Below, in pieces: positions 36,343 through 59,767 of a stretch of DNA of 59,968 nucleotides (position 1 is its first letter; every line of letters begins with the position of its first letter). Source of the stretch: an uncultured Pelagibacteraceae bacterium (lineage in GTDB: Bacteria > Pseudomonadota > Alphaproteobacteria > Pelagibacterales > Pelagibacteraceae); NCBI GenBank assembly GCA_902614905.1, contig CACMMN010000006.1:1-59968 (forward strand), read 5' to 3'. The position numbers and the translations under genes are program-made. A model generated the notes under the pieces. It ran no database searches. It was not told the DNA's origin and saw only the letters and a program-made list of their open reading frames with translations.

Positions 36343-38493
36343 ATGGAGAATATTGAATTGGGAACTGTAAAATCATTTGTAGATACACTTTGGGTGATAG
36401 ATTGCGCTATTCTAGTATTTATTATGCAAGCTGGCTTCATGTGTATGGAGACTGGTTTGTCACGACACAAAAATAGCATTAACGTAGCTTTAAAAAATGC
36501 TGCTGACTTTGGTGTAGCAGTTGTAGTTTTTTGGATTTTTGGATTTGGTTTAATGTTTGGAAAAAGCTATAACGGACTTTTTGGAACAGATTTATTTTTC
36601 TTTAAGACAGATATAGCTGAATATATGGTTTACTTTGTGTTTCAAGCAATGTTTGTCGCTACTGCTGCAACTATTATCTCAGGTGCTGTTGCAGAGAGAA
36701 TGAAGTTTAACGGTTACATAATTATTACAATATTAGCCACTGGAATAATTTATCCAATTGTAGGCCACTGGGCATGGTCCTCAAGCTATCTTAGTAATAT
36801 GGATGCTGAAAGACAATTGTTGGAGATAACTGGACAAATAAGTACAGGTGGGTGGTTAAGTAAAATAGGTTTTATCGATTTTGCTGGTAGTACTATTGTC
36901 CATTCAGTCGGTGGATGGATGGCACTTGCGGCTGTTATGATTTTGGGACCAAGAATAGGAAAGTATTCAAAAGCAAACAAAGGAAAGTTTACAGGTTCTA
37001 GTTTTCCTTTAGCAGTATTAGGAACTCTAATACTTTGGTTTGGTTGGTTTGGTTTTAACGGTGGTAGCAACGGCGCAATGGATGAAGCTGTCCCACTAAT
37101 ATTAATTAATACCTTTTTAGCAGCCTCATTTGGTTTACTGACAGGGCTTGGTATTTCTTTTACTTTATTTAAAAAACCAGACCCTTATTATGTTATTCTT
37201 GGACCATTAGCAGGTTTAGTTGCGATAACTGCTGGATGTAACTCAATGTCATCCGTTGTTTCAATATTTGTTGGAATAGTTGGTGCCATAATTGCAATAA
37301 TAGTTAATGAAATTTTGCACAAATATGAAATTGATGATGTGGTAGGAGCTATACCAGTTCACTTAGCAGCTGGAGTTTGGGGAACTTTAGCCGTTGGTTT
37401 ATTTAGTGATTTAGATTTGCTAGGCACTGGTTTAAGTAGACTTGAGCAAATAGAAGCACAATTAATTGGTATAATTTCAATAGGAGCATTTTCTTTCATA
37501 GGTTCCTATTTTATCTTAAAAATTTTAAATAAAATTTATCCTTTACGAGTTAGCCCTATTCAAGAAGAGTTAGGCCTTAATATTGCAGAGCATAATGCAA
37601 CTTCAGTAGAACATGATTTAATTTCTATTTTAGAAAAACAATCTGAGAGTGGAGATTTAACTATTAGAGGACCACAAGATCCATTTACTGCAGGGGGTGT
37701 GATAGGTTTATATTATAATAAACTAATGAGCAAACTAGAGACTAGTGAAATAGAAAAACAAAAGTGGAGAAACAGAATTACAAATGAAGTTAAACTTGCA
37801 GTAAAAGTTCAAGAAAACTTTCTTCCTAAAAGAAATCTAGAGAATTATCCTGTGCATGGTATCAATATTGCTGCTAGAGAGGTTTCTGGAGATTTTTTTA
37901 GTTTTTATCCACACAACGAAAGTGTTTATTTCATCATTGCAGACGTGGCTGGAAAAGGAATTCATGCAGGAATGGTTATGGCTAAAGCCTCCACTCTCTT
38001 TGAAATAATGTCGAGAGATAAAGTTGACGTTGATGAAATGGCCTTCCACATGAATAATGATTTACATATAACAAAAACAGCCGGTATGTTTGTTACAACA
38101 ATTATAGGCAATTATAATGTTAAAAGTGGAGAATTAAATTGGGTAAATGCTGGCCATCAGCCTGCTTTATTGAGAGATGAAAAAGGTAATTTTGAGGAGT
38201 TTGCGAGCAAATCACCTCCATTAGGAGTTGTAAAACAAAATTCAAAAAATGATTATTTTATCAATAAATCAAATCTAAATGGAAATAGGTTCTACGCTTT
38301 TACTGATGGTTTATCAGAAAGCCTTGATAAAAATAATAAAGAGATTGGTATTGAAGGCTCTAAAGAAGTTATTAATAAAAATTTTAATAAAGATTTACAA
38401 GATGAACTCAATGACATTGCTAAAGAAATAAAATCTAACGCTAAAAACCGTCAATTAAGTGATGACTTAACTGTTTTAGCTATTGGAAAATAA
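36343..38493 (+). CDS. Ammonium transporter fused to a PP2C/SpoIIE-type phosphatase
   Basis: The 716-aa protein joins two domains. Residues about 5-400 are a full Amt channel: eleven hydrophobic helices, QAGFMCMETGLSRHKN, Asp179 before the GSTIVHSVGG motif, and the twin pore histidines His187 and His340. Residues about 460-716 are a PP2C-type Ser/Thr phosphatase of the RsbU/SpoIIE class with metal aspartates at Asp517 (SGDFFSF), Asp534 (IADVAGKG), the FTDGLSE motif and DDLTVLAIGK at the end. A helical linker (465-495) joins them. It is predicted to sense or carry ammonium and dephosphorylate a cytoplasmic partner, such as an anti-anti-sigma factor. No STAS or anti-sigma kinase gene is nearby. 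A plain Amt would end near residue 410. Confidence 0.93.
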   Translation: MENIELGTVKSFVDTLWVIDCAILVFIMQAGFMCMETGLSRHKNSINVALKNAADFGVAVVVFWIFGFGLMFGKSYNGLFGTDLFFFKTDIAEYMVYFVFQAMFVATAATIISGAVAERMKFNGYIIITILATGIIYPIVGHWAWSSSYLSNMDAERQLLEITGQISTGGWLSKIGFIDFAGSTIVHSVGGWMALAAVMILGPRIGKYSKANKGKFTGSSFPLAVLGTLILWFGWFGFNGGSNGAMDEAVPLILINTFLAASFGLLTGLGISFTLFKKPDPYYVILGPLAGLVAITAGCNSMSSVVSIFVGIVGAIIAIIVNEILHKYEIDDVVGAIPVHLAAGVWGTLAVGLFSDLDLLGTGLSRLEQIEAQLIGIISIGAFSFIGSYFILKILNKIYPLRVSPIQEELGLNIAEHNATSVEHDLISILEKQSESGDLTIRGPQDPFTAGGVIGLYYNKLMSKLETSEIEKQKWRNRITNEVKLAVKVQENFLPKRNLENYPVHGINIAAREVSGDFFSFYPHNESVYFIIADVAGKGIHAGMVMAKASTLFEIMSRDKVDVDEMAFHMNNDLHITKTAGMFVTTIIGNYNVKSGELNWVNAGHQPALLRDEKGNFEEFASKSPPLGVVKQNSKNDYFINKSNLNGNRFYAFTDGLSESLDKNNKEIGIEGSKEVINKNFNKDLQDELNDIAKEIKSNAKNRQLSDDLTVLAIGK

Positions 38494-38498
38494 TTTTG

Positions 38499-39779
38499 TC
38501 ATCCAATTCTAATTTTTGGCATGCAATAAAAGTCTGCAGTATCGATTTTTGACGAATACTCTCTTTTCATGTTCCACTTTTTATGTACCCCAGCACTTGC
38601 AAGGCTTAAAGTAGATCTACCGTATCGATAGTTAGTATTATCAATTGATTTCATTAATTTATTTATTTTTTCATCTCTCTCGGATGAAAACAAATTTTTC
38701 TTTTCAGTATCATTTGACAACCCCGTTAGCATTACTCCTGCTTTTTGATAACGATAACCATTTTTAAAAATATTTTCTAAAATAGAAATAGCTGCTTTCA
38801 CTATTTCGATACTGTTATTTGTTGCAATTGGAAAGTCTATTGTTTTGGAATTTGAATAATATCCGAAGTTTCTTTGAAAAGGGCTAGTTCTTACAAAAAC
38901 TGTTATTGCTTTTGCAACCAAAGACTCTGATCTTACTTTTTCAGAGGCATTCAGACAATAATTTGCAACTGCTTCTTTTAATTCTTGAAAACTTTCAACT
39001 CTTTTTCCAAAAGAACGTGAGACTACACAACTTTTTCTCTTTGAGGTGGTCTTTTCAAGATCTATACATGGTACACCTCTTAGTTCCATTGCTGTCCTTG
39101 AACTTAAAACATTTGAAGATTTTTTTATCCAGGTATTAGATTTATTTTTTAATTGTTTAGCATTATATATTCCATTTTTCTGATAAAATTTTGTTAACTG
39201 TCTACCAACTCCCCACACATCATTTATTTCTATTTTTTCTAATATTGGATCAAGATTCTCAATACCAATCAAACTTGTAACACCCGATTGTTTTTTCTTT
39301 GCAATATGATTTGCAACTTTGCTTAAGGTTTTAGTTTTTGCTATTCCTATACTGGTTGGAATGCCAGTCCATTGCATTACTGTATTTCTTATTTCTTTAC
39401 CAACATCTGCTATTTCATTGTCTGGAAAATTAGATAAATCCATAAACGCTTCATCTATTGAGTACACTTCTATATCAGAATTAAATCTTTTTAATGTTCT
39501 CATTACTCTTCTTGATAGATCTCCGTATAAAGAATAGTTTGAAGAAAAAACTTGTACATTATTTTTAATAATTATATTTTTTGCTTTGAAATATGGTTCT
39601 CCCATTTTTATTCCAAGAGCTTTTGCTTCATTAGATCTTGAAATAATACAGCCATCATTGTTGGATAAAACAACGACAGGTTTTTTTCTTATTTTAGGAT
39701 TAAATAATCTTTCACAAGATACATAGAAAGAATTACAATCGACCAGTGCTATTTTTTTAGTAAACCGAGTGGATGACAT
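38499..39779 (-). CDS. umuC: DNA polymerase V catalytic subunit UmuC
   Basis: Y-family translesion polymerase. The 426-aa protein has the catalytic residues in ALVDCNSFYVSCE (Asp14) and YSIDEAFMDL (Asp109, Glu110), the steric-gate region with FYVSCERLFNP, and the C-terminal little-finger and UmuC extension. It overlaps umuD by 23 bp and follows it in the same operon. With RecA and UmuD' it would copy past damaged bases during SOS. The stop is 5 bp from convergent Amt-PP2C. Confidence 0.95.
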   Translation of the reverse strand: MSSTRFTKKIALVDCNSFYVSCERLFNPKIRKKPVVVLSNNDGCIISRSNEAKALGIKMGEPYFKAKNIIIKNNVQVFSSNYSLYGDLSRRVMRTLKRFNSDIEVYSIDEAFMDLSNFPDNEIADVGKEIRNTVMQWTGIPTSIGIAKTKTLSKVANHIAKKKQSGVTSLIGIENLDPILEKIEINDVWGVGRQLTKFYQKNGIYNAKQLKNKSNTWIKKSSNVLSSRTAMELRGVPCIDLEKTTSKRKSCVVSRSFGKRVESFQELKEAVANYCLNASEKVRSESLVAKAITVFVRTSPFQRNFGYYSNSKTIDFPIATNNSIEIVKAAISILENIFKNGYRYQKAGVMLTGLSNDTEKKNLFSSERDEKINKLMKSIDNTNYRYGRSTLSLASAGVHKKWNMKREYSSKIDTADFYCMPKIRIG

Positions 39780-40152
39780 AAGTTACAACTCCCCAAATAA
39801 AGATATCTTCTTCTTCGTTGATTAAAATTCGATCTTTAAAGTTTTTAGATCCTGAAGTAAGAAATTTTTTATCTCTTTCCTGGACAAAACTTTTAACAAC
39901 TAACTCATCGTGAACATTTGCAATTACAGTTGAAAAATTTTTTGGCTTTAAACTTTTATCAACCACCAATATATCTCCATCATTAATACCAACATCAGTC
40001 ATAGATTTACCTTGTACTCTAATTACAAAAGTTGCTGGAACATTCCTTATTAAATGAACATTAAGATCTATATCTTCTTCTATATAGTCTGTAGCAGGAG
40101 ATGGAAAACCAGCCCCAGCTTTGTGTAAATAATAAGGTATTGTAATCTTCAT
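39757..40152 (-). CDS. umuD: UmuD, self-cleaving SOS mutagenesis subunit
   Basis: A LexA-fold peptidase of 131 aa. The cleavage site is probably Ala14-Gly15 in AGAGFPSPA, and the Ser-Lys dyad is Ser50 (QGKSMTD) and Lys87 (ELVVKSF). The N-terminal arm is about ten residues shorter than E. coli UmuD. It is followed by umuC with a 23-bp overlap. An SOS box (GAAC-N7-GAAC on this strand) lies 5 bp upstream of the start codon, so LexA control is expected. Confidence 0.93.
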   Translation of the reverse strand: MKITIPYYLHKAGAGFPSPATDYIEEDIDLNVHLIRNVPATFVIRVQGKSMTDVGINDGDILVVDKSLKPKNFSTVIANVHDELVVKSFVQERDKKFLTSGSKNFKDRILINEEEDIFIWGVVTYVIHSVY

Positions 40153-40319: not shown

Positions 40320-40781
40320 ATGAGAAAATTTTTAGGAGTAATATTTTTAAGCTGTTTTTTTTTCTTAAATGCTAACTCAGAAACTATTTTTTATGGATGC
40401 ATAGGAAATACACAAGCTGAGAAAGTAAAGCACGGTCTAAATTTTGATAAAATGATAATGACACATTGGAATGATCAAAAGGTTAATTATCCAATTACGA
40501 AAATAGAAGGATCTTATGTTTGGGTAGAAGAAAGAGATGACGTGGGAGGAATGTTTCCTAATAGTAGAATAATAAATTATTTTGATAAATCTGAAAATAC
40601 GTTAAACAAATTTTTTTATGGGATAAGTTATGAAGAAAGAGATTTATTAAGATCAAAAATTGAGTCAGGAAAAGATAAGTATTGGAGCGAAGATGGACCA
40701 AAGTTTATTGAATATCAAGTAAAAATATTACAAGAAAATTTTAAATCTCAATTTGAATTTAAATTAACATGTAAAAAATAA
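40320..40781 (+). CDS. Secreted hypothetical protein
   Basis: A 153-aa protein beginning MRKFLGVIFLSCFFFLNANSE, a convincing signal peptide with cleavage probably after Ser20. The open frame extends back to a TTG at 40263, but the ATG at 40320 sits at the signal peptide and is preferred. The mature part has a Cys near the N-terminus (YGC) and one near the end (LTCKK), which may form a disulfide. No domain is recognised. It ends one base inside the GFA-type gene at 40781 and heads a cluster with two GFA genes and a kinase. Confidence 0.7.
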   Translation: MRKFLGVIFLSCFFFLNANSETIFYGCIGNTQAEKVKHGLNFDKMIMTHWNDQKVNYPITKIEGSYVWVEERDDVGGMFPNSRIINYFDKSENTLNKFFYGISYEERDLLRSKIESGKDKYWSEDGPKFIEYQVKILQENFKSQFEFKLTCKK

Positions 40782-41149
40782 TGAAAAAACTAACCTGTCA
40801 TTGTGGATTAATAGAAATTGAGATTGATATAAAAGATAATTTTGAAGATTTATACAGATGTAATTGTTCAATGTGCATTAGGAAAGGAGCAATTACTGCA
40901 ATTGTAAACAAAGAAGATTTAAAAGTAGTTAAAGGTATGAATAAATTAAAATGTTATCAATTCAAAACAAAGGTAGCAAAACATTATTTTTGCTCTAATT
41001 GTGGAATTCAAACTCACAATCTAAGAAGAAGAGATCCAAATACATATGGTATTAATGTTGCGTGCATCAATGACATATCTACAAAAGAGCTGTTTGATTT
41101 TAAAGTAAGAATAAATGATGGGAAAAATCACATAATGGATAGACAATAA
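40781..41149 (+). CDS. GFA-family zinc protein (first copy)
   Basis: GFA-domain proteins are small zinc-binding folds first described in glutathione-dependent formaldehyde activation. The 122-aa protein has the paired CxC and CxxC sites: TCHCGLIEIEI (Cys5, Cys7), RCNCSMC and HYFCSNCGIQTH. The last His with GINVACI follows. The formaldehyde link is a family annotation and is not proven for most members. The next gene is a paralog, 2 bp away, with similar motifs. Confidence 0.85.
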   Translation: MKKLTCHCGLIEIEIDIKDNFEDLYRCNCSMCIRKGAITAIVNKEDLKVVKGMNKLKCYQFKTKVAKHYFCSNCGIQTHNLRRRDPNTYGINVACINDISTKELFDFKVRINDGKNHIMDRQ

Positions 41150-41151
41150 TT

Positions 41152-41523
41152 ATGAAAAAAAAATTAACATGTCACTGCGGAGAATTTGAAGCAGAAGTGA
41201 CAATACCTGAAAATGGTATTGAAAAAGTTATGAGATGTAATTGTACTTTATGTAAGAGAAAAGGCTATGTGATTGGAGTTTTAGGTGAAAATGACTTTAA
41301 AATTTTAAAAGGTGAGAAATTGTTAAAACTTTATCAGTACTATACTAAAGCTGCAAAACATTATTTCTGTTCAATATGTGGAATTCATACACATAATAGA
41401 CCAAGAATAAATCCTAAAATATATGGTATTAATGTAGCATGTGTTGAAGGTATAGATCCATTTCAATTAAAAAATGTCGCACTTAATGATGGAGAAAACC
41501 ATCCACTAGATCAAAAGAAGTAA
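41152..41523 (+). CDS. GFA-family zinc protein (second copy)
   Basis: A 123-aa paralog of the preceding gene. It shows TCHCGEFEAEV, RCNCTLCKRKG and HYFCSICGIHTHNR, with the same layout and GINVACV. The pair probably arose by tandem duplication, and both retain all metal ligands, so neither looks like a decaying copy. They might act as a heterodimer or have split substrates. The stop overlaps the kinase ATG by 1 bp. Confidence 0.85.
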   Translation: MKKKLTCHCGEFEAEVTIPENGIEKVMRCNCTLCKRKGYVIGVLGENDFKILKGEKLLKLYQYYTKAAKHYFCSICGIHTHNRPRINPKIYGINVACVEGIDPFQLKNVALNDGENHPLDQKK

Positions 41524-47747: not shown

Positions 47748-48041
47748 CTAGTTTTTATTGCCTTTAATGTCAGTGGTAAGTTGTTGGTAAACCATAACTG
47801 TAATAGCTCTAATATTTTTCTCTAATCTATTTATGTCAAAGCTAAAATTTGCATCATTACAATTTAATTCATGAAAATAATAAGTATTAGTATAACCCAA
47901 AGTTGGTTTTACTTCATCGCTAATAATTTTTAAAGCTTGGGTTTTCTTATCAATTGTAAAATTATAACGACAAACACTGGTAGTAGCCCATTGAAGTATT
48001 AAGCCAATAACAATGCCAATCGTTAAAATTATTTTGGTCAT
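47748..48041 (-). CDS. Small membrane-anchored protein coupled to the GAF-PP2C gene
   Basis: A 97-aa protein with a single N-terminal hydrophobic helix (TKIILTIGIVIGLILQWATT, residues 2-21) and a short soluble part. It has two cysteines (CRYNF and LNCND) that could form a disulfide outside the membrane. The start overlaps the phosphatase stop by 4 bp (48038-48041), so the genes are translationally coupled. I do not recognise a family; it may be a partner of the phosphatase. Confidence 0.65.
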   Translation of the reverse strand: MTKIILTIGIVIGLILQWATTSVCRYNFTIDKKTQALKIISDEVKPTLGYTNTYYFHELNCNDANFSFDINRLEKNIRAITVMVYQQLTTDIKGNKN

Positions 48042-49327
48042 TTTGAGTCAACTACTAAAATGGTTAAATCATCTTTTTGAATTTTACCTGAGTTAATTAT
48101 ATCATCAATAATAATTTTCAGTCTTTCATTATTTGGTTTTTCTTGATATTTTTTTATATAGTCTTTAAAGCCATCTGAACCCAACATTTCACCGCTAGGA
48201 TCTTTAATCTCTGTTATACCATCAGTAAAAATGTACATTGAGCTATTATCAAATCCAATTGTAGCTTCGTTATATTTCGTTTTAGCCATTATTCCAAGAG
48301 GCGGCCCAGCTTCTTCGAAAGTAGCAAAGCTTCCGTCTTTTTTTAAAATTAATGGCGGCTCATGTCCTGCACTTGATAATTTTAATTCTTTTTTGTTACT
48401 GTCGTAAATACCAACCAACATAGTAACAAACATTCCTCTAGAAATTGTTTCACATATTTCGTTGTTAAGAAGCATTAATAATTCAGATGTTGAAAACATT
48501 GTTTTACTTAAACATCTATAAAGACTAGAAGCCTTGGACATCAATAAAGATGATTTAATTCCTTTTCCAGATACATCAGCTACTCCAAATCCATATTTAC
48601 CTTCACCAAGATCAGAAAAGTTATAAAAATCTCCAGACACAACTTTAGCTGGTATGTTTATCCCTGCTATTGGAAAATCTTCTTTTTTATTTTGAGATAA
48701 TAATGATCTTTGAATTTCTCCAACTATTTCCACTTCTTTTTGAATCTTATTTTTCTCAATCATTTCTTTAGCCATTTTAGCATTTCTAATTGCTAAAGCT
48801 GCTGGAGCAGATAGTGTTTCTAATAATTTTCTATCGTCCTCAATAAATAATTTATCGTTGGTTTTTTTGTTTAAGCAATGTATTACGCCTATACAATCGT
48901 TTGCAGCTATAAGAGGTGAGCATAAGACTGAATAAGTTGTAAAATTTGTTTTATTATCTAAATCAAAATAAAATTCTGCAATTTCTCTTACATCCTTTCT
49001 AACATTTCCCACTCTCACACATTTTCTACTTTGCACAGCCTTGCCCATTACTCCATCTTTTAAATCTAATTCGTATTCATCAAGATAATTTTGATGCAAT
49101 GAGGCAATACATTCAAATTTTTTTTTTTTATCATTAATCAAAAATATATTTGCAGCCTCGGCATTTATTCTTGCAATGATTACTTGTAGCGCAGTCTTCA
49201 AGGTATCATTTAAATCAAGAGAGACCGCAAACTCTTGATTCATTTTAGTGACAATCTCCAAATCTACGTTTACTTGTAGATTTTTGTCTGTCTCGTCTTT
49301 TGCTTGTTTTTTTGATTTAAAAAACAT
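48038..49327 (-). CDS. GAF-domain PP2C/SpoIIE-type phosphatase (RsbU-like)
   Basis: The 429-aa protein has a GAF domain (about 25-190, with SLDLNDTLKTALQVIIARINAEAANIF split across it, GVMGKAVQSRKCVRVG and VLCSPLIAANDCIGVIHCLN), a helix (190-205) and a PP2C domain (about 205-428) with metal aspartates in SGDFYNF, VADVSGKG, FTDGITE and KDDLTILVV. It belongs to the same phosphatase class as the C-terminal half of the Amt fusion at 36343. Its ligand for the GAF domain is unknown. The 97-aa membrane protein is coupled downstream. Confidence 0.93.
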   Translation of the reverse strand: MFFKSKKQAKDETDKNLQVNVDLEIVTKMNQEFAVSLDLNDTLKTALQVIIARINAEAANIFLINDKKKKFECIASLHQNYLDEYELDLKDGVMGKAVQSRKCVRVGNVRKDVREIAEFYFDLDNKTNFTTYSVLCSPLIAANDCIGVIHCLNKKTNDKLFIEDDRKLLETLSAPAALAIRNAKMAKEMIEKNKIQKEVEIVGEIQRSLLSQNKKEDFPIAGINIPAKVVSGDFYNFSDLGEGKYGFGVADVSGKGIKSSLLMSKASSLYRCLSKTMFSTSELLMLLNNEICETISRGMFVTMLVGIYDSNKKELKLSSAGHEPPLILKKDGSFATFEEAGPPLGIMAKTKYNEATIGFDNSSMYIFTDGITEIKDPSGEMLGSDGFKDYIKKYQEKPNNERLKIIIDDIINSGKIQKDDLTILVVDSK

Positions 49328-49492: not shown

Positions 49493-50254
49493 GTGGACAT
49501 ACTATTTGTAATAATCCTAGGTGCACTCTGGGGTAGTTTTGCAAATGTATGTATTTTTAGATTTCCAAATGAGGGTAATGTTGTTTCAGGAAGATCATTT
49601 TGCCCTAAATGCAAACAAAAAATTGTTTGGTATGATAATATACCAATCATCTCTTATATCATTTTAAAAGGAAAATGTAGAAATTGTGATTATAGAATTG
49701 CTTTTCAATATCTTGTAGTTGAAATTTTAAGCTTAATATCGTTTACATTAATATATTATCTATTTGGAATTTCGTTAACAACTCTATTTTTTTGGATTTT
49801 ATTTTTATCTTTTTTAATAATTTTTTTTATAGATCTTAAACACTATATAATACCAAATGTAATAACGTTTCCCCTAATGGCTTTGGGCTTTTTAAAATCT
49901 TTTGATCCAAATTTAAGCTATCTTTTTCCAAATTATGTAAATTCATTAATTGGCGGTGCATTAGGTTACGGAATAATATTTTCTATAATTTATTTTTATA
50001 AACAGATTAGAAAAAAAGAGGGGATGGGCTTAGGTGATGCAAAACTATTTGCTGTCATAGGATTTTGGTTTGGCTGGATATCAATTCCATTTATTGTTTT
50101 TCTATCATCCTTGATAGCATTAGTTTCTGTAATTCCAAGTTTGATAAATAAATCAAAGCAAATGTCATCTGAAATTCCTTTTGGCCCATATATTATTATC
50201 GCAACAGCAATATTTATTTTTTTCAAAGAGAGCTTTACTAATTTTCTTTTATAG
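49493..50254 (+). CDS. pilD: Prepilin peptidase/methyltransferase PilD
   Basis: Cleaves the leader of type IV prepilins and N-methylates the new N-terminus. The 253-aa membrane protein has the cytoplasmic zinc-binding cysteines Cys37, Cys40, Cys62 and Cys65 (CPKCKQK and CRNC) and the two catalytic aspartates: Asp114 (FFIDLKHYIIP) and Asp182 in the GxGD motif (GMGLGDAKLF). It starts with GTG at 49493. It sits next to two prepilin genes, whose K-G|FT cleavage sites it would process. Confidence 0.95.
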   Translation: MDILFVIILGALWGSFANVCIFRFPNEGNVVSGRSFCPKCKQKIVWYDNIPIISYIILKGKCRNCDYRIAFQYLVVEILSLISFTLIYYLFGISLTTLFFWILFLSFLIIFFIDLKHYIIPNVITFPLMALGFLKSFDPNLSYLFPNYVNSLIGGALGYGIIFSIIYFYKQIRKKEGMGLGDAKLFAVIGFWFGWISIPFIVFLSSLIALVSVIPSLINKSKQMSSEIPFGPYIIIATAIFIFFKESFTNFLL

Positions 50255-50896: not shown

Positions 50897-51397
50897 ATGA
50901 AACACAAAGGTTTCACATTAATAGAACTTCTAGTCGTAGTAGCTATCATTGGTATTTTAGCTGCTGTAGGTGTAGTTGCTTATAATGGGTATACTGCTAG
51001 CGCTAAAAAGAAAACGATGGAAAGTAATTCTAAAACGATTCAAAAATATGCAATGGCTGAAATTGCAAAATGTCAGATGGGCACAAATCTTACCGAGGGA
51101 CCAACTGTAAGCAAACATATAACTTCATGTTCAACTGGAGGTGCTGGAAATTTAAACAGCAATGTTTGGGCACAGTATTTTATAGATGTTTTTCAAAGCA
51201 AAATAAAAAACCCTTATGGCTCATCAAGTAATCCAAGTGGTCTATTAAATAGCGGCCCTACTAGAAATGCTGGTGAAATTGTTTTAGTTGGATGGAACCA
51301 ATGCAAAACCGATCCGTGTTTTTTGATAAGAGCGTCTTATGACGAGAATGGTTCAAAAAAAGACTTGCCTGACCTTCAAGTACCAACTGGATTTTAA
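50897..51397 (+). CDS. Type IV pilin (first of a tandem pair)
   Basis: The 166-aa prepilin has a short charged leader MKHKG, cleaved before FTLIELLVVVAIIGILAAVG (residues 6-25, Glu at +5). AAVGVVAYNGYTASAKKK follows. The globular domain carries four cysteines after residue 50 (AKCQMG, TSCSTGG, NQCKTDPC), able to form two disulfides. It resembles type IVa PilA/PilE. It follows the esterase by 8 bp and is the likely major pilin, shared with the next paralog. Confidence 0.93.
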   Translation: MKHKGFTLIELLVVVAIIGILAAVGVVAYNGYTASAKKKTMESNSKTIQKYAMAEIAKCQMGTNLTEGPTVSKHITSCSTGGAGNLNSNVWAQYFIDVFQSKIKNPYGSSSNPSGLLNSGPTRNAGEIVLVGWNQCKTDPCFLIRASYDENGSKKDLPDLQVPTGF

Positions 51398-51399
51398 AT

Positions 51400-51945
51400 A
51401 TGAAGCGTTCGGGTTTCACACTCATAGAACTTTTAGTAGTAGTAGCAATAATTGGTATTTTAGCTGCAGTAGGAGTAGTTGCTTATAATGGGTATACGGC
51501 TAGTGCTAAGAAAAATACATTGCAAACTAATTTTAAAAATTTAGAAAAAAAAATTGCTGTATCAGCAACAGGTTGTTTTAGTGGAGTGGAAGTAAAATTC
51601 GGTCCATATCTTGATGGCAGATCTCCTAATAGTCATACTTGTAATACACCAAGTTTTTCTGGAAATATGTTAAATGCAGACTCAATTACATATAAACTTT
51701 ATTTGGAAATCTACGGAACAAAAAATCCTATTGACGACTCTGTCGCTGGAGCAGCATGGAGTAATGGAAGATGTCCACCAGCAAATGTACCACCAGGTCA
51801 AATAGCCTTAGGTTATGCCCATAAAAATAATACATGTGGAATGGCAGGCAATATGTCCTGCGTGAGAGTAAACTTAGGTGATACAGATGGAGATGGTAAG
51901 GACGACTTTTTATCTAAAGAATATAATTTTTGTGAATATAAATAA
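51400..51945 (+). CDS. Type IV pilin (second of a tandem pair), with a Ca-loop-like motif
   Basis: The 181-aa prepilin has leader MKRSG before FTLIELLVVVAIIGILAAVG, and its first 40 or so residues are nearly identical to the upstream copy, also at DNA level. The globular domain differs completely, with six cysteines (GCFSG, HTCNTP, GRCPP, NTCG, MSCVRV, NFCEYK). Near the C-terminus DTDGDGKDD at 161-169 fits a DxDxDGxxD calcium-binding loop. It starts 2 bp after the first pilin. Confidence 0.92.
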   Translation: MKRSGFTLIELLVVVAIIGILAAVGVVAYNGYTASAKKNTLQTNFKNLEKKIAVSATGCFSGVEVKFGPYLDGRSPNSHTCNTPSFSGNMLNADSITYKLYLEIYGTKNPIDDSVAGAAWSNGRCPPANVPPGQIALGYAHKNNTCGMAGNMSCVRVNLGDTDGDGKDDFLSKEYNFCEYK

Positions 51946-51953
51946 CAAAATAA

Positions 51954-52190
51954 ATGGATCAGTTTCTATATTTTAATATTTTAATTTCAGCATTAAATAT
52001 TTTTATAATAGTTTACGCTTTTTCTTATAATTTTTTTCCAAAAAAGTGGAGAAATAAAGTTAAACAAGGAACAATTATTGGATTAGCTTTAATCTTCGTT
52101 ACGATGATTACTATGTTTTCTTGGGTAATTTATTTTTATTATTTAATTTTTAAACCTTTAGAAAATTTAAATTTTTTAGCTCTAATTTAG
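51954..52190 (+). CDS. Small membrane protein next to the pilins
   Basis: A 78-aa protein with two hydrophobic segments (FLYFNILISALNIFIIVYAF at 3-22; GLALIFVTMITMFSWVIYF near 43-61) and a basic loop between them (KKWRNKVKQG). It follows the second pilin by 8 bp, suggesting one transcript. The stop is nested with that of convergent PilY1 in TTAG at 52187-52190. No family recognised. Confidence 0.6.
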   Translation: MDQFLYFNILISALNIFIIVYAFSYNFFPKKWRNKVKQGTIIGLALIFVTMITMFSWVIYFYYLIFKPLENLNFLALI

Positions 52191-55100
52191 AAGTTTTCTT
52201 TCCAAGAATTTCTGTAAGATGAAGCAGCTCCTTGACCAGCTTGAATCTGAACTAAATCTTTTTTATTTCCTGCAGATTGACCTGCGATGTTAGCAAATAA
52301 TTTATCTGCAAAAACTACAATTTTTGATAAAACACCTTGTCCAACATAATAACACGCTTCACCTTTTCTTATAGTTCCTAATTGACTTGAGTTGTTACTT
52401 CCACATTCATCATCAGCTTGGCAAATATATGCATTACCTAAACTACACTTATTAACTGATTGCGTAGGTTCATATATAGGAAAATACGCAAAACCTTTGT
52501 AAACAGTTGGCTCTGCAGTGACTTTAGAAGAATTATCTAAAACTATATACCAGCCTCTATGTTTATTTTCCACAAGACATGTAGTTGGCATATCATTTGT
52601 CGTATTTCTGCATTTAGTTATATCATCTGCTGTTGCTGCTTTACCGACATCTCTAAATTGAGGATAAAATTCGTCTCTTATTCCTATTAAGTAATTAGAT
52701 GTTCCAGCTGAAGTGTCATTTATTCTATTAAAGTCTCCAGTTCCTGCGTATAACCATAATGAATTTGTCGATCTACCAATAGTAGCATCCATTGGATGGA
52801 ACATGTACCTTCCATTAGTTTTGTTCGATCCTGCAGTAAATAAAGTTGTTTGGTCGAATATTTTAATTTGATTTCCGGCACCATCGTCGGTCATATTTGT
52901 TAAATTAAATTTCGTAATTTTACCTTCTAAATCACTTAGATATAAAAGACCACCTGAGTAAGTTACTCCCCTAGCTGTATCAGGAGTTATCAAAACCGGA
53001 GAAGCCGGGGTTGAATTAACAATATCACTTGATGCCATGTCTGTGATCTCTATTCTTTTATATAGACTTCCAGGATTTGTGAAATCTTCAAGATTAACAA
53101 TTGTTAAATTTGATCCAATACCCTCAAACTGAGTACCATATCCGCCACCCATTGCGGCAACATAAATATCATCTCTTATATCATTGTCACCTGCACCATT
53201 GTTTGGAATTCTAAAAATTCTTGGATCTGACCATGTCTCACCAAGAAGACTGTAGTCATACTCTGGATGAGTAGTCACACCAGTATTCTTAGTGCCAGGC
53301 TTGATACTGACACCAAGTATTGAGCTTGTATTGCTGTCACCTGTATCTGCAGAATAAGTTATATCATCAGCAAAGTTTAAAACTGTCTCACCATTTGCAT
53401 CTTTTGTAACAGTAAAATTTGTGTAATTCTTGTCATTAAATAAAACTTTTATATCGTTTTTTGAAATATCTCTTACAGGAAACGTCCATGATTTACCTTT
53501 GTAACATGAAGTAGTAAGTTCTCCATTACTATCTCTAGTGTCTTGACATGTATTAGATATACTGCTGTTTTGAGAAAATTTATCTGTAACCTCTAAAGCT
53601 TCTGCAAAACTAGCTAAAGAATATGATCGTGCAATATATTTATAAAGATGTGTATTTTCGTTATGATCTATTCTGTAAACAGTACTGTTAATATTGTCAT
53701 TATATATTGACATTAAGTGTAAAGGTTTTTCAGGATCTGTTACATCAAGAACAGAAAAACCAGCTCCACCTCTACCATAAGGTACCATTAATATTGTATG
53801 CCATTTTTTGATTGTATCTAAAGGACTCTTAAAGTACATATCATGCACTACAATAGAGCCATCAACTCCAAAAACTGCATTTGTTCCACCTTTTGTTTTA
53901 TTCAGTGATCTATTCATAACTAGCGGAAGGTTCGGAGCAACTAAAGGCGGTACAAATCCCCATAACTCTTTTCCTGTTTTAGAGTCGAAGGCATGAAGTA
54001 TTCCGCTATTAGAGCCTGCGTAGATTACTTCTTTTCTAGTTTTATTATTTGCAGCAAAATTAACGTAGTTATTTAAAGTTCTAAAATAAGCTTCCTGGTT
54101 ATTTCCTGTAAATGCTGTATCTGCCCCTGGCGGACCAACTACTACAAGCTGTGAATGATAAATGTCACCTAAAGGATTGTCTCTTGTTTCAGTTAAGTTA
54201 CAATCACCATCATAATCGAAATAGTCTTTACCTCTAATAAACTCTATTAAACCTTTCTGATCGTCTGAATTACCATCTATAACACCAGCTGTGTTTGCAC
54301 ATCTATTGTTTGTCGTATCAGTATCATTATGAAAGTCGACAATAGCATTTTTGTATAAACTAAATAAAGCACCAACTTCTGCCGCATTTGCTTTAGTAAA
54401 ATTGTTATAGCCAGATTTGTAGTTTGTTCCAGGAATTCCAACACTCCAAATTTTCCTTTGATCTGGCGCTGGCATTTCCTCAACAGCTGACCAATTACCA
54501 CTATCCTTCTCATCTAAGTTTCCATTTGAGTCAATGGCTGTTCTTGTAATAGTACCTGCCCACTCCTTATTTTGTCTGTAATCAAATTGTGCTTGAAATA
54601 GTGATCCTGAAGACTCAATCGTTGCTGTAATTGCAGGAGCTGTAAATGATAATTTTTGAGCAATAATTTGCGAAATTGCCGCTTTGAGTTCTGATTTTAA
54701 TTGAGCAGCTGTTTTTGCAACAATTGCTGCATCTGTTCCACCTTCTTTTGCAAGTTGATTAAAATTTCTTAAACCACTTGATGATATTCCTGTTCCAAAA
54801 GCAACTGCAAAAGTTTTTACAGGATGTTTTTGTGTTCTAAGACTTTTTGCTGCATTCTTCGCACCATTATGATTATACCAGTCTCCGTCCCCGATTACCA
54901 TGGCATAACTATTTTGACATGGTGAATTTTTATCTATTGGGCTGAATCTGCCATGATTATAATACTGTTGCGCAATTTTCATAAAAGCCATTGCATCTGT
55001 TCCACCCCCAGGGTTTACTCCGCTAATTATTTGATTAATTCTTGCAGCTCCACCTTTATGAACTCTAACTTTTAAACAATTATATCTATTGCATGGACTT

Positions 55101-56269
55101 GAATTTCCTGTTGTTATGTTTCCACTCCAATTTCTAAATCCAGATGAGCCATGCGCCCAATAAGCAAATCCAAAGTTAACACCAGAAGTTAAAGAAGCAT
55201 CTGTAACGATCGCTTTGATAGCCTCGTGAGCTGCCTGCATTCTTGTTTGTGGAGCACCACCAAAATTTTTCAACCAGTTTCCATTCATATCAAAAGATTG
55301 AACAGTTGCTTTATTTAGTCCTGTTGTAATAATTCTGCTATTAGTTTTATCTACTGAAACTCCCCAAGGATAATAAAAGTAAGTAGCGCTACTTGTTGAA
55401 GCCGCAGTGCTTCTAACACCTTTCCTCCATGTATAATTACTTTGACCGTAACTAACTTTTGTCAGCCTACTTGAACCCCAGCTCAGATGATAAAGAACCT
55501 GTTCGTTATTAGGATCAACTGTTAATCCCCCATAATTGTTTCCATAACCATATCTATAGCTACCAGCGTTAATACTTGGGCAACCATTACTATCAAATTG
55601 AAATCTATATATTCTACTGTTTCTGTAAGAATACATGTAACTAAAATTTTTATCAGCCGCACCAACCATGTAAGAATATCTTAAATTGGTATTTACATTA
55701 CAATTTCTTGCTCTATTTCTATCAACATCATAAAGATAATAACCCTGACTAGTTCCAACTCCGATAAACCTCCCTTGAGGGTTCTGAAATAATGCAAGGT
55801 TATAAGGATAGGCACTTCCAAGATTTATAAAACCTAAGCACGCCCCATCCGACTCTCTTATTTTAACTATTCTTCTGTTTGACCAACTAATTGCATAAAG
55901 TACTCCACCCGCAGACTCAATACCATATGGATAATAAGTCTGACAATTTCCTTTATGGGCTGTACCATTTACTCCCCAACTTGAGTCAACCTTAGCGTTT
56001 GCATATTCTAATTTCTTAATTCCATATGCTGCATATTGTGCAACATATAAATTACCGTTTGCATCTGTTGTAGTATCGTAAGGTAAACTTATTCCAGAAG
56101 ATCCTCCGCTCATTCTCCAACCCATACTTCCAGACTTATCTAATAATATTAAAACATTAGCTGGCACATCACCAATACCAGTTCCAGGAGGTAACGCTTT
56201 TCCAAAAACTACACCAAAAGAAATTAAATATAAAAATAATGAAGTAATTGTAATTTTAAAATTTTTCAT
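52187..56269 (-). CDS. pilY1: PilY1-like type IV pilus tip adhesin with split VWA domain
   Basis: The 1360-aa secreted protein has a signal peptide (about 1-23, KITITSLFLYLISFGVVF), then a von Willebrand A domain with a complete metal site: DKSGS (Asp44, Ser46, Ser48), Thr424 (GGGTDAM) and Asp461 (VIGDGDW). Residues about 52-340, between the first MIDAS motif and the rest of the VWA, are a repeat-rich insertion resembling NHL/beta-propeller blades (DANGNLYVAQYAAYGI, GGVLYAISWSNRRIVKI, VDPNNEQVLYHLSWG). The C-terminal half (about 690-1250) is the PilY1/PilC beta-propeller domain (ASGSNSGILHAFDSKTGKELWGFVPP region and MGGGYG). PilY1 primes pilus assembly and mediates adhesion. It overlaps the 182-aa gene by 4 bp. 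Confidence 0.92.
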   Translation of the reverse strand: MKNFKITITSLFLYLISFGVVFGKALPPGTGIGDVPANVLILLDKSGSMGWRMSGGSSGISLPYDTTTDANGNLYVAQYAAYGIKKLEYANAKVDSSWGVNGTAHKGNCQTYYPYGIESAGGVLYAISWSNRRIVKIRESDGACLGFINLGSAYPYNLALFQNPQGRFIGVGTSQGYYLYDVDRNRARNCNVNTNLRYSYMVGAADKNFSYMYSYRNSRIYRFQFDSNGCPSINAGSYRYGYGNNYGGLTVDPNNEQVLYHLSWGSSRLTKVSYGQSNYTWRKGVRSTAASTSSATYFYYPWGVSVDKTNSRIITTGLNKATVQSFDMNGNWLKNFGGAPQTRMQAAHEAIKAIVTDASLTSGVNFGFAYWAHGSSGFRNWSGNITTGNSSPCNRYNCLKVRVHKGGAARINQIISGVNPGGGTDAMAFMKIAQQYYNHGRFSPIDKNSPCQNSYAMVIGDGDWYNHNGAKNAAKSLRTQKHPVKTFAVAFGTGISSSGLRNFNQLAKEGGTDAAIVAKTAAQLKSELKAAISQIIAQKLSFTAPAITATIESSGSLFQAQFDYRQNKEWAGTITRTAIDSNGNLDEKDSGNWSAVEEMPAPDQRKIWSVGIPGTNYKSGYNNFTKANAAEVGALFSLYKNAIVDFHNDTDTTNNRCANTAGVIDGNSDDQKGLIEFIRGKDYFDYDGDCNLTETRDNPLGDIYHSQLVVVGPPGADTAFTGNNQEAYFRTLNNYVNFAANNKTRKEVIYAGSNSGILHAFDSKTGKELWGFVPPLVAPNLPLVMNRSLNKTKGGTNAVFGVDGSIVVHDMYFKSPLDTIKKWHTILMVPYGRGGAGFSVLDVTDPEKPLHLMSIYNDNINSTVYRIDHNENTHLYKYIARSYSLASFAEALEVTDKFSQNSSISNTCQDTRDSNGELTTSCYKGKSWTFPVRDISKNDIKVLFNDKNYTNFTVTKDANGETVLNFADDITYSADTGDSNTSSILGVSIKPGTKNTGVTTHPEYDYSLLGETWSDPRIFRIPNNGAGDNDIRDDIYVAAMGGGYGTQFEGIGSNLTIVNLEDFTNPGSLYKRIEITDMASSDIVNSTPASPVLITPDTARGVTYSGGLLYLSDLEGKITKFNLTNMTDDGAGNQIKIFDQTTLFTAGSNKTNGRYMFHPMDATIGRSTNSLWLYAGTGDFNRINDTSAGTSNYLIGIRDEFYPQFRDVGKAATADDITKCRNTTNDMPTTCLVENKHRGWYIVLDNSSKVTAEPTVYKGFAYFPIYEPTQSVNKCSLGNAYICQADDECGSNNSSQLGTIRKGEACYYVGQGVLSKIVVFADKLFANIAGQSAGNKKDLVQIQAGQGAASSYRNSWKENF

Positions 56270-56814
56270 TGTGATTGGTCCAGCTCTTCCTCAATTTTTC
56301 CTAGTTCAAAATTATTAATATGTTCTGCTAAAATTTGATCGTATTTCTTAGTAGATAAATATAATTGCTCATCTATTTTATTTTCTTCACCCAAAAACCT
56401 CTGGTAAACTACAAATTCATCTGACTTTTCAAAAATATGAAAACCCGTAAACGAGTCTGGATTTTGAGAAGTATCAAAATCACCATATACCTTTTTAGTA
56501 TATTTCATTAGGGTTAATTTTTTTGAGATGTTGTTATTTTCATCATTTAATGCAACAAAATTTATAGCAACAAGAGTGTTATTAACAAACCTATACTCAA
56601 TCATAATTCCCTCATCTAATCCTTCACCAGGACAAATATCTTTTGCAAAAAAAGGATATATGTTCATTCCTGGATAACGATATGGAGGTGGAGGGCCATA
56701 CTCCTTTTCCATTTTTGATAAATTATCACCGATTTCATATATAACGTTGCATTTCGCGTGTGCTGCAGCAGATATTAAAAGACTTATTAATATAATTTTT
56801 AATCTTAAAAACAT
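56266..56814 (-). CDS. Secreted hypothetical protein coupled to pilY1
   Basis: The 182-aa protein has an N-terminal signal peptide (RLKIILISLLISAAAHAKCN, cleavage after AHA). It contains PPPPYRYPGMN and a charged middle, with no recognised domain. It lies between the PilX-like gene (73 bp away) and pilY1, whose start codon overlaps its stop by 4 bp (ATGA), so its product is probably made with PilY1 and acts in the periplasm, perhaps as a chaperone or pilus-associated factor (inference). Confidence 0.6.
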   Translation of the reverse strand: MFLRLKIILISLLISAAAHAKCNVIYEIGDNLSKMEKEYGPPPPYRYPGMNIYPFFAKDICPGEGLDEGIMIEYRFVNNTLVAINFVALNDENNNISKKLTLMKYTKKVYGDFDTSQNPDSFTGFHIFEKSDEFVVYQRFLGEENKIDEQLYLSTKKYDQILAEHINNFELGKIEEELDQSQ

Positions 56815-56887
56815 GAAATTTTAATAATTATAGACGAATATTTAAATATTTTAAAATAAATTTTTTAGGATAAATAAATATTTTTGA

Positions 56888-57592
56888 CTATCTTGGAAAA
56901 ACTATTGTGCTTTCCAATGAAACTACCATGTTCTCACTGTCCATATTAAGGCCGCATCCGTACACTCTGTAAGCCATTCCGCTTTGTCCAGCATCTGACT
57001 GGGTTTTTTTTACACTTCCACCGTATCCTTTAAAGGGAACAGCGCCAATTCTAAAGATAAAAAATTCATAATAATAATCATATAAATCTTCTGCCTCCTC
57101 CTTTTCACTTTTGCTGGCATTAGTTTTAAAACTATCTCTTAGCAATTTTCCAAAATTCCAGCTTTGAGCAGTAACTACTCCTTTGTTATCTAAATTTTTT
57201 TTGTCTAAGTCATGAAAACTGTTGTAACACACATCCCTCGTATTTTTATAACTACCAAAGGTCTTGTCGTAATTTGCAAGTGTCATTGTGCCCGAAAAAC
57301 CTGACCCTCCTGTGCTTTTACCACCTTGGTTTTCAGGTAATTTTCTTAAACTTAAATCTCTCTTTTTAGATTTAGAATTCCATGGACCCAAAAAATAATT
57401 TTTTAAATAATTTTCTCCCTCCATAATTGCTGTTTCCGCTACATAAAATGTTTGCTGGTAATCATCACTATAATTATTACTTTGATGATCACCTGAAGAA
57501 ATCACAATTAAAGCACCACCCATCAAAGACATCACAAGAAGCAAAACGAGTGAAAGTACTAACGCAAATCCTTTTTCATTTCTATTTTTCAT
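56888..57592 (-). CDS. pilX: Minor pilin, PilX-like
   Basis: The 234-aa protein has the leader MKNRNEKG before FALVLSLVLLLVMSLMGGAL, so it is a class of minor pilin processed by PilD. Position +5 after cleavage is Leu rather than Glu, as in GspK/PilX-type tip pseudopilins. ETAIMEGENYL follows, a PilX-type N-terminal helix. Two cysteines (RDVCYNSF, VYGCGLN) are in the globular part. It overlaps PilW by 4 bp in a fimT-pilV-pilW-pilX order. Confidence 0.85.
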   Translation of the reverse strand: MKNRNEKGFALVLSLVLLLVMSLMGGALIVISSGDHQSNNYSDDYQQTFYVAETAIMEGENYLKNYFLGPWNSKSKKRDLSLRKLPENQGGKSTGGSGFSGTMTLANYDKTFGSYKNTRDVCYNSFHDLDKKNLDNKGVVTAQSWNFGKLLRDSFKTNASKSEKEEAEDLYDYYYEFFIFRIGAVPFKGYGGSVKKTQSDAGQSGMAYRVYGCGLNMDSENMVVSLESTIVFPR

Positions 57593-58434
57593 TCTAATCC
57601 TACATTTCTGGCATAAGCCGTTACCGTTAAAGTCTCTCTTAAAAATCGATCATTAAATCTTGTAAGATCTCTAGATGAATCTGTTAAAGCAAAAATTGTC
57701 TTTTTTTTGTTGTCATTATAAAACGGATTTTTTGATCTTACCGCTAATGCGATATCTACAGTTTTAATGTCATATAATTTCTTTTTGTTAGAATTTGTTG
57801 GTGATGGTGGTGGTTTAAGAAGATTTCCATTTGCATCAACTGCGTTAAAAATCATATCTTGAACATAACCTTCAATAAATTGTTCTGGGTAAGTTCTCTC
57901 ATCTAATTGACTGCTATTTGGATATGTGTCTGTAGCAGGATTATCCCAAGTATTTTTTTGCTTACTCCATTTAACTTTAGTTTTGAAAACTGAAAATGCA
58001 TCGATATTATTATTTGTTAATTTATCTTTTACAGTTGAAGGTTTACAATAATAAGAAACTTTGTATCTTATAAATGTATACCTTTTATTTACATCAGTTT
58101 CGTTGGGCTTATATTCCACATCACCATAAACAATATCAATTTTGTCACAATCATTAAGCTTGTTTGAAGTTTTAGAAATTAATATTGGGGGATCTGAAAC
58201 TTTCAAGTCATCTCCATAATACTTAAAACCTGCCATACGAATATCTCTCACCAACATATTAAGTACCGCTCTACCAGTTTGACTCACTTTTGCTTTATCT
58301 GTAACTTTTTGAAAAGAGTTATTGACAGCAGTGTAAGAAGCATACATTGCAGCCATCATAATTGATGAAATCACTATACCAATTAATATTTCGACTAAAG
58401 TAACCCCCAGAATAGATTTTTTGTCAGTTTTCAT
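57589..58434 (-). CDS. pilW: Minor pilin, PilW-like
   Basis: The 281-aa prepilin has leader MKTDKKSILG before VTLVEILIGIVISSIMMAAM (Glu at +5), then a long extended domain. RDIRMAGFKYYGDD, a segment near residue 68, is the common PilW signature, and the globular part contains CDKIDIVYG and YYCKP. It overlaps PilV by 1 bp and PilX by 4 bp. It would be part of the minor-pilin tip complex that primes pilus assembly with PilY1. Confidence 0.88.
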   Translation of the reverse strand: MKTDKKSILGVTLVEILIGIVISSIMMAAMYASYTAVNNSFQKVTDKAKVSQTGRAVLNMLVRDIRMAGFKYYGDDLKVSDPPILISKTSNKLNDCDKIDIVYGDVEYKPNETDVNKRYTFIRYKVSYYCKPSTVKDKLTNNNIDAFSVFKTKVKWSKQKNTWDNPATDTYPNSSQLDERTYPEQFIEGYVQDMIFNAVDANGNLLKPPPSPTNSNKKKLYDIKTVDIALAVRSKNPFYNDNKKKTIFALTDSSRDLTRFNDRFLRETLTVTAYARNVGLE

Positions 58435-59030
58435 TATGGTTTAATATCTACGTGCACAGGGAAATAAATGAATTTATCTTTCTCACCATTATTTAAAAAA
58501 ATTTGAAATTTAGCTATATACATTTTGTCAAAAACTTTATCATTTTTGAACCTGCATCCTGAAGGGCAGATATCAAATATTTTCAAAAATTTCTTTTCTT
58601 TGGTACCTGTTCCATCTTTTCTACATTTAAGCCTTCTCTCAGAAAATCGATTATTCCATTTGTCTAATTTTTTATCAACAATGTTAGTAAAATTTGAGTT
58701 TAAATTGGCACCTGTTGAACAACTATTCGAACCCCAAGACTGGTTATCACCAGTGCTGTTATCTTGCTTGCTATTATTAACTAAAATATCAACAAACTTT
58801 TGACTAGATTTTTCTGCTTGAGAATTTCCTAGTAGGTCCTCAGCAACCATACTAACTAAATAAGTACCTTTAGTTCTCTCTCCTGATACATCAATTGATT
58901 GAACTGAATAATTGACCATTTGAAAAACGGCGATAAAACCAATGCCAACTATAACTGTAGAGATTAAACCTTCTATAAGTGTTATCCCCTTTTCAAAAAA
59001 TCTTTTACTGTCTTGACCAAGTTTTTCCAT
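58434..59030 (-). CDS. pilV: Minor pilin, PilV-like
   Basis: The 198-aa prepilin has leader MEKLGQDSKRFFEKG before ITLIEGLISTVIVGIGFIAV (Glu at +5). The following helix NYSVQSIDVSGERTKGTYL is PilV-like. Four cysteines lie in the C-terminal half. It overlaps the FimT gene by 26 bp at its start and PilW by 1 bp at its end. The leader is longer than those of the major pilins, which is common in PilV. Confidence 0.85.
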   Translation of the reverse strand: MEKLGQDSKRFFEKGITLIEGLISTVIVGIGFIAVFQMVNYSVQSIDVSGERTKGTYLVSMVAEDLLGNSQAEKSSQKFVDILVNNSKQDNSTGDNQSWGSNSCSTGANLNSNFTNIVDKKLDKWNNRFSERRLKCRKDGTGTKEKKFLKIFDICPSGCRFKNDKVFDKMYIAKFQIFLNNGEKDKFIYFPVHVDIKP

Positions 59031-59667: not shown

Positions 59668-59767
59668 CTGGATCTATCTTACCTGACTTTGCTAATTCTT
59701 CCAAAGATTTTTCCATAGTAATCATGCCATCTCTTACCGCAGTCTGCATAATGCTTGGTATTTGTTT
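59645..59767 (-). pseudogene. C-terminal remnant of a PilT retraction ATPase
   Basis: A 40-codon frame after a stop reads KQIPSIMQTAVRDGM and continues ITMEKSLEELAKSGKID to a TAA at 59645. This is the end of PilT-family ATPases (IPS-x-x-QTG..GM.TM..SL..L...G.I). No Walker A, B or other PilT motif precedes it in frame. An internal ATG at 59749 could give a 34-aa peptide. It is best read as the surviving tail of a deleted pilT, retained because fimT starts inside it. Confidence 0.7.

Follow-up and report, generated by a model that had tools for sequence, protein, structure and literature searches.

Receptor-class Amt proteins are so far known with a histidine kinase or a cyclase as signalling output, the C-terminal output of Sd-Amt1 being a diguanylate cyclase. 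In Ks-Amt5 of Kuenenia, two ammonium ions are held inside the membrane by Q24, E31, N47, D50, T51, T109 and T112 (PMC5764959). RsbU-type phosphatases are turned on when helical linkers pair their phosphatase domains, and input modules with coiled-coil linkers have been proposed to be exchangeable among kinases, cyclases and phosphatases (PMC12143880). In the portion of the literature covered, the inputs described for RsbU, SpoIIE, RssB and SiaA phosphatases (the RsbU four-helix bundle, receiver, HAMP, PAS and GAF domains) do not include Amt. In this study, a gene that joins these two protein classes was analysed in an uncultured Pelagibacteraceae bacterium of the SAR11 group (assembly GCA_902614905.1; 1.01 Mb in 37 contigs, 82% complete). 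The window, that is, the whole stretch of DNA analysed, comprises 59,968 nucleotides of contig CACMMN010000006.1, and the gene occupies positions 36343-38493 on the forward strand, encoding a protein of 716 residues (copy A) with an Amt domain followed by a SpoIIE-type PP2C phosphatase domain. With a probability of roughly 0.6, we interpret this protein as an ammonium receptor-phosphatase whose signal goes to a partner switch linked with pili and adhesion, its response to ammonium, its activity and its target being predicted features.

The open reading frame (ORF) of copy A contains no internal stop, and both domains are found complete by Pfam, with Ammonium_transp at residues 17-420 (372 bits, cut-off 23.2, E 4e-111) and SpoIIE at residues 526-714 (118 bits, cut-off 25, E 4.7e-34), in agreement with the first-pass annotation of this DNA, which had placed a complete Amt channel and a full PP2C domain in a single frame. 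The same annotation proposed looking for the domain pair in SAR11 and other genomes. Loci of relatives were collected by scanning contigs with two narrow peptide patterns; the best 80 of 150 relatives were retained, all titled Pelagibacteraceae, the top one being 99% identical over linker and phosphatase. A single frame of at least 600 residues with both domains was present in 77 of these 80 loci, one of which (L085) is counted although its contig ends a few residues before the stop. Contig ends cut the fusion within the Amt part in L025 and L042. A stop or frameshift between the domains, the possibility against which the first-pass annotation had warned, was not encountered in these loci: the sole broken frame, in L019, lies inside the Amt part. 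The fusions of AG-912-F23 (L009) and AG-893-K09 (L010) are about 98% identical to copy A over the whole protein.

Selection on the gene was assessed by Nei-Gojobori ratios of nonsynonymous to synonymous substitution rates (dN/dS) between copy A and 12 orthologues, which were 0.03-0.05 for Amt, 0.04-0.12 for PP2C and 0.02-0.08 for the linker (one linker value was not computable); these ratios are rough, because many dS values exceed 1. The linker had the lowest dN of the three segments in all 12 comparisons. Purifying selection is evident in all three segments. The full set of metal aspartates that had been recognised in the PP2C domain (D517, D534, D655, D707 and D708) is invariant in 130 of 130 aligned fusion rows, which were drawn from two overlapping collections and are not independent. 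Gene decay or an artefact, be it a chimera or a protein with a functionless phosphatase domain, is therefore a highly improbable explanation of the fusion. Such a reading could appeal to the broken frame in L019; against it, the one-frame fusion in 77 loci from separate genome records, the invariant metal residues and dN/dS values of 0.02-0.12 rule out a chimeric assembly, a pseudogene or a dead phosphatase domain as far as sequence can.

The Amt domain (residues 17-420, positions 36391-37602, PF00909) is, judging from its alignment to 6eu6 and 8qj3, nearest to the receptor-class Amt proteins. Its best sequence matches in the PDB are 8qj3/8qj4 and 8qpf (E 7e-120), followed by 6eu6; the titles of these entries are 'Receptor Sd-Amt1 (OFF-state)' and '(ON-state)', Ammonium Transporter Amt1 from Shewanella denitrificans, and 'Sensor Amt Protein', respectively. 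Alignment with Sd-Amt1 extends past the Amt domain to residue 466, into the linker, and Sd-Amt1 is the closest solved relative of the Amt part with its adjoining linker, although its own C-terminal output is another domain, unmatched by the SpoIIE part. The equivalents of the Ks-Amt5 site in copy A are Q29, E36, N52, D55, F56, T110 and S113: five of seven are identical, T112 is replaced by S and T51 by F. All seven are invariant across the fusion rows, and Sd-Amt1 agrees with copy A at every one of these positions (Q, E, N, D, F, T and S). The likeness to Ks-Amt5 suggested in the first-pass annotation thus holds, with five shared residues, one Thr-to-Ser change and receptors as the closest structures. 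In the stand-alone SAR11 Amt, A, L and S stand in place of Q29, D55 and T110; E36, N52, F56 and S113 are common to both, so only Q29, D55 and T110 set the fusion apart in this comparison. On the basis of these residues, the Amt part would bind ammonium at the in-membrane site.

The channel residues of Amt proteins are also retained in copy A, namely the Phe gate F104/F238, W145 and the twin histidines H187 and H340, which had been noticed earlier and align with the His pair of Ks-Amt5. Residue 242 varies among the 130 fusion rows (S in 96, A in 33, T in one). This retention would fit a protein that is mainly an ammonium transporter, whose phosphatase would report transport flux or would control uptake or nitrogen assimilation, and not pili. 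We consider this quite improbable: Ks-Amt5 keeps the same channel residues yet shows no translocation (PMC5764959), a separate stand-alone Amt is encoded on contig C24 of the source genome, the closest structures are receptors, and the association apparent in the genomes is with pili, although no dedicated search for one with nitrogen genes was made.

Ks-Amt5 (PDB 6eu6) and the alphaproteobacterial Amt-histidine kinases resemble copy A in joining an Amt module to a signalling output; they differ in that this output is a histidine kinase rather than a Ser/Thr phosphatase, and in that a response regulator would be expected in place of a partner switch. Membership of copy A in that group was rejected, since Ammonium_transp and SpoIIE are its only Pfam matches, without HisKA or HATPase_c. 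The Amt-histidine kinases encountered here (L201-L209; nine of nine scanned) span five alphaproteobacterial families and have a linker motif in common with the fusion; in the five compared, the receptor-site residues are as in the fusion except for one F-to-L change. The source genome encodes three SpoIIE and three Amt domains, and these include a second Amt-SpoIIE fusion (copy B; 745 residues, contig C8, L007:8385-10961) that is 55% identical overall to copy A. In a tree of 16 Amt domains, in which long branches were flagged, copies A and B cluster with a fusion of another genus (G004, L268) with support 99/98, separate from the Amt-histidine kinases. The same fusions group weakly (73/89) in the phosphatase tree, together with a SpoIIE protein (L273) whose frame of 297 residues showed no Amt part. 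These trees are most simply read as a single fusion event and a later duplication.

Behind the Amt domain, its conserved C-terminal tail, shared with Sd-Amt1 to residue 466, continues into a putative helical linker (residues 421-503, positions 37603-37851). The AlphaFold model places a helix at residues 450-493, ahead of the phosphatase, with low confidence (predicted local distance difference test, pLDDT, about 43-57). The phosphatase domain has its first model strand at residue 504 and is matched by PF07228 at positions 37918-38484; it is modelled as a PP2C fold, with pLDDT between 68 and 91 when taken over blocks of ten residues. In the full-length model, the Amt part came out poorly (mean pLDDT 57.6, predicted template modelling score 0.37), so Foldseek template modelling scores of that part carry little meaning and sequence matches were relied upon instead. 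For the phosphatase half, Foldseek relatives are the RsbU domain of Rv1364c, RssB, RsbX, SiaA and SpoIIE. Copy A shares with the RsbU/SpoIIE/RssB/SiaA phosphatases of the PPM family the PF07228 domain, the metal aspartates and, according to the low-confidence part of the model, a preceding helix; its fold matches include 3ke6, 3f79, 6k4e and 5ucg.

Partner-switch proteins that could receive a signal from such a phosphatase were surveyed in 197 Pelagibacteraceae genomes, a set that overlaps the 80 loci (for example, G093 is taken to be the genome of L010), so that the two sets of counts are not independent. SpoIIE was found in 38 genomes, an RsbW-like kinase (HATPase_c_2) in 34, and a small STAS protein in the same 34. 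Both partners therefore accompany SpoIIE in 34 of 38 genomes, and neither occurs in any of the 159 genomes without SpoIIE (Fisher p = 4e-34, shared ancestry ignored). In these calls, a STAS protein was a frame shorter than 200 residues; STAS domains in frames of 540-629 residues were excluded as presumed anion transporters, by size without a Pfam check, as in G048 and G074, two genomes without SpoIIE whose STAS occurs solely in frames of 629 and 544 residues. HATPase_c_2 matches weaker than E 2.5e-16 were likewise excluded, all listed ones of these being partial. The Amt-SpoIIE fusion itself was present in 22 of the 197 genomes, in one of which (G131) it is cut by a contig end, and 21 of the 22 have both partners. 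In 29 of the 34 genomes, the STAS gene adjoins the kinase gene (coordinates read by eye). In the other five (G009, G017, G022, G063 and G078) they lie 29-57 kb apart; this separation leaves our confidence unchanged, because none of these genomes has an Amt fusion and the kinase is still at pilus genes, about 0.8 kb from a short T2SSE (PilT-like) match.

The STAS protein of the pilus locus matches PF01740 (E 3.7e-16) and scores above the cut-off of TIGR00377; the kinase matches PF13581 (E 1.5e-18), and it is also recognised by RsbW and SpoIIAB models, in each case with a score under the cut-off. A DSSG motif, which we take to be the phosphorylation site, was present in 14 of 14 STAS sequences compared (YMDSSGI in 12, YIDSSG in two), and EAAQNIVKHA and GGLGTFF, presumably the ATP-binding boxes, are retained in nine of nine kinases. 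In some genomes, STAS is encoded by a tandem pair of genes rather than a single one, and each of the two has DSSG (L150:10491-11071, L157:13436-14016 and L159:6562-7142).

In the nearest relative examined, AG-893-K09 (which G093 is taken to be), a 99-residue STAS gene and a 146-residue HATPase_c_2 gene lie inside a type IV pilus locus. This genome is collinear with window positions 33820-59764 at 93-98% identity, short gaps aside, and the partners are accordingly expected about 8 kb beyond the end of the window and contig. An initial view that partner-switch proteins are missing from the organism was dropped, both being present in relatives including this one. The window contains the near part of the pilus locus: a prepilin peptidase (PilD; 49493-50254, forward strand, PF06750 and PF01478), two pilin-like genes on the forward strand at 50897-51397 (PF07963) and 51400-51945 (recognised by its N-terminal sequence), a PilY1-like protein of 1360 residues (52187-56269, reverse strand, PF05567) and small reverse-strand genes (56266-59667), most with pilin-like N-termini identified by inspection outside the Pfam scan, at which the locus leaves the contig. 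In AG-893-K09 it continues with PilT, PilMN, PilO, a secretin, PilB, PilC, the RsbW-like kinase and STAS. The small ORF at 59734-59967 clustered with PilO, which the collinearity with AG-893-K09 suggests is chance.

Across the 80 loci, STAS and kinase occur in the upstream flank of the fusion, on the strand opposite to two pilin genes, in 55, with PilC beyond them in 54 of those 55, and they are found near the fusion in another genus too (G004). In 13 loci of the window type (L009-L021), the fusion instead adjoins a glycosyltransferase and/or a UmuD-like gene, and in eight the contig ends within 1.5 kb upstream. Strong PilB matches were obtained in 43 of the 197 genomes, 33 of them with SpoIIE. 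A full-length PilB, defined as a T2SSE match with E below 1e-110, is present in 32 of the 34 genomes with the switch; in the other two (G134 and G160), contig ends lie near the locus. In coastal SAR11, autotransporter adhesins are described as always having genes for type IV pili, type II secretion or both as neighbours (PMC12636525).

The following mechanism is suggested by these observations. The Amt part would bind ammonium inside the membrane, given the residues it shares with Ks-Amt5 and Sd-Amt1, and the helical linker may relay the change to the SpoIIE-type phosphatase, which would then be under ammonium control. The RsbW-like kinase is predicted to phosphorylate the DSSG serine of the small STAS protein and the phosphatase to strip this phosphate, whereupon the kinase would be released or captured. 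The same switch may be fed by several SpoIIE proteins that differ in input: this genome would contribute its two Amt fusions and a GAF protein, and relatives CHASE2 proteins. The output is most likely on the neighbouring type IV pilus and adhesion genes, since the pilus locus encloses the partner pair and CHASE2-SpoIIE genes have FecR-like or autotransporter genes as neighbours; ammonium would then set the making or use of pili, to judge from gene position. The fuller proposal, in which SAR11 deploys type IV pili and adhesins by ammonium sensing through the Amt-phosphatase, with a shared STAS/kinase switch that integrates GAF and CHASE2 signals and dispenses with a sigma factor, is put forward tentatively.

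The chief rival accepts the same receptor-phosphatase and switch and takes the kinase as an anti-sigma factor that would free or hold a sigma factor encoded elsewhere, the pilus genes being mere neighbours or one portion of a broader regulon. Classical Rsb systems operate in this manner (PMC8256260), and the TIGR00377 score of the STAS protein, that of an anti-sigma antagonist, and the sub-threshold RsbW and SpoIIAB matches of the kinase are in line with it. We nevertheless regard a sigma-factor output as unlikely. No sigma-factor gene was found among the Pfam-scanned genes of the locus (a scan of part of its ORFs, with no genome-wide sigma search); STAS and kinase stand side by side among pilus genes in 55 loci, and the kinase stays close to the PilT match where the pair is apart. 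For several switches of Gram-negative bacteria, the portion of the literature covered gives no known sigma target. Regarding the link from ammonium to an anti-sigma partner switch that the first-pass annotation had drawn, the receptor-class Amt residues and the switch in relatives are consistent with its first part, whereas the sigma end found no counterpart among the scanned genes; the pilus context fits a sigma-independent target equally well. Its suggested check for STAS proteins and anti-sigma kinases elsewhere in the genome gave a STAS protein and an RsbW-like kinase in relatives, where both co-occur with the fusion and mostly adjoin it, but neither in the source assembly.

Several findings weigh against the receptor-phosphatase and its pilus-linked switch. 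Searches of the source assembly with STAS, STAS_2 and HATPase_c_2 were negative, while the same searches were positive in 10, 11 and 12 of 14 control genomes, respectively; a STAS-like stretch in a frame of 175 residues (G000:C7:14122-14247; 12.5 bits, E 0.08, far below cut-off) and a similar one in G093 are probably due to chance. The source genome is one of four SpoIIE genomes among the 38 without detected partners, together with G010, G146 and G172, and the co-occurrence statistic carries no correction for ancestry. In the nearest relative, STAS and kinase lie about 29 kb from the copy-A-type fusion rather than adjoining it, and four of the 80 loci (L022, L024, L086 and L087) have a flank but no such pair. 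SpoIIE is missing from ten of the 43 genomes that encode full-length PilB, so the switch is not a prerequisite for pili, and gene position is in any case weak evidence for a pilus output. At the receptor site, the Ks-Amt5 residue T51 is F in the fusion, as in Sd-Amt1, and E36 and N52 occur in stand-alone Amt too. Finally, Amt proteins form trimers and RsbU-type phosphatases become active on dimerising (PMC5764959, PMC12143880), which makes the geometry of coupling a real puzzle.

Other SpoIIE proteins provide the further candidate inputs. The window encodes a GAF-SpoIIE (RsbU-like) phosphatase of 429 residues (48038-49327, reverse strand; PF07228 139 bits, PF13185 44 bits), presumed to be a second input of the switch, and SpoIIE proteins elsewhere in the family have GAF or CHASE2 as input or, in the case of genus g9, a receiver domain. 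An ORF of 97 residues without a Pfam match (cluster c18; 47748-48041) overlaps the end of the GAF-SpoIIE gene by four bases and lies beside this gene in three other loci compared. CHASE2-SpoIIE phosphatases (L157:5265-7316, L162:1592-3643 and L165:3625-5679) adjoin FecR-like and/or autotransporter genes beside the pilus/switch locus, and may be connected with the adhesins that PMC12636525 describes in coastal SAR11. The receiver-SpoIIE protein of genus g9 (540 residues; L241:301-1920 and L247:301-1920) has an RssB-like arrangement, and the scan of L241 showed a weak HisKA-like stretch. Before copy B, an ORF of 110 residues resembles, by weak matches only, a small HMA/MerP-like protein, which adjoins copy B in G043, G026 and G109 and was detected in 26 of the 80 loci. 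Proteins of cluster c42 (L148:1532-2524 and L150:2037-3005), near the locus in G043 and G026, give two weak winged-helix matches and are possible DNA-binding regulators.

Directly downstream of the fusion and convergent with it, at 38499-40152, a UmuC-like polymerase gene (Pfam IMS) is accompanied by a UmuD-like ORF recognised by eye; the UmuD-like gene occurs in 11 of the 13 window-type loci. About 450 bp at 40330-40780, holding most of an ORF of 153 residues, interrupt the collinearity with AG-893-K09, and two tandem, similar cysteine-rich proteins of 122 and 123 residues follow at 40781-41523 and are kept in relatives (cluster c11).

The taxonomic range of the fusion was examined with a linker-plus-phosphatase profile built from two rows. 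Full-length matches were restricted to the source genome both in a class-level set of 385 genomes (E up to 1e-10), few of them Pelagibacteraceae, and in a phylum-level set of 398 (E up to 1e-25), the two sets overlapping. The linker end alone was matched in ten class-level genomes, and all nine of those scanned were Amt-HisKA-HATPase_c proteins. Within the genomes searched, Amt-SpoIIE is confined to Pelagibacteraceae. The first-pass annotation had considered an Amt-PP2C fusion uncharacterised; in agreement, no such protein turned up in the open-licence literature searched, which is no proof of absence. The covered parts of PMC5764959, PMC10433425 and PMC12918730 name no phosphatase fusion, and a term search of a survey of bacterial PP2C proteins (PMC12088040) found no mention of ammonium or Amt. 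HmpUVW of Nostoc punctiforme likewise comprises a phosphatase, a STAS protein and a kinase; it belongs to another phylum, no Amt input is mentioned in the part of the literature covered, and the likeness is one of description. Receptor-class Amt fusions and SpoIIE phosphatases are thus both known, and their union, tied to a SAR11 pilus-locus switch, is absent from the open-licence literature searched.

A Ser/Thr phosphatase as the output of a receptor-class Amt would join ammonium sensing at the membrane to partner switching, and the fusion fits the proposal of exchangeable input modules (PMC12143880). The SAR11 bacteria are very abundant, and a defined receptor, substrate and kinase make ammonium control of their pili directly testable. 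They are also poor in regulators. If the fuller proposal holds, a new signalling route would connect a nutrient receptor with surface behaviour, in bacteria that rank among the most abundant of the ocean.

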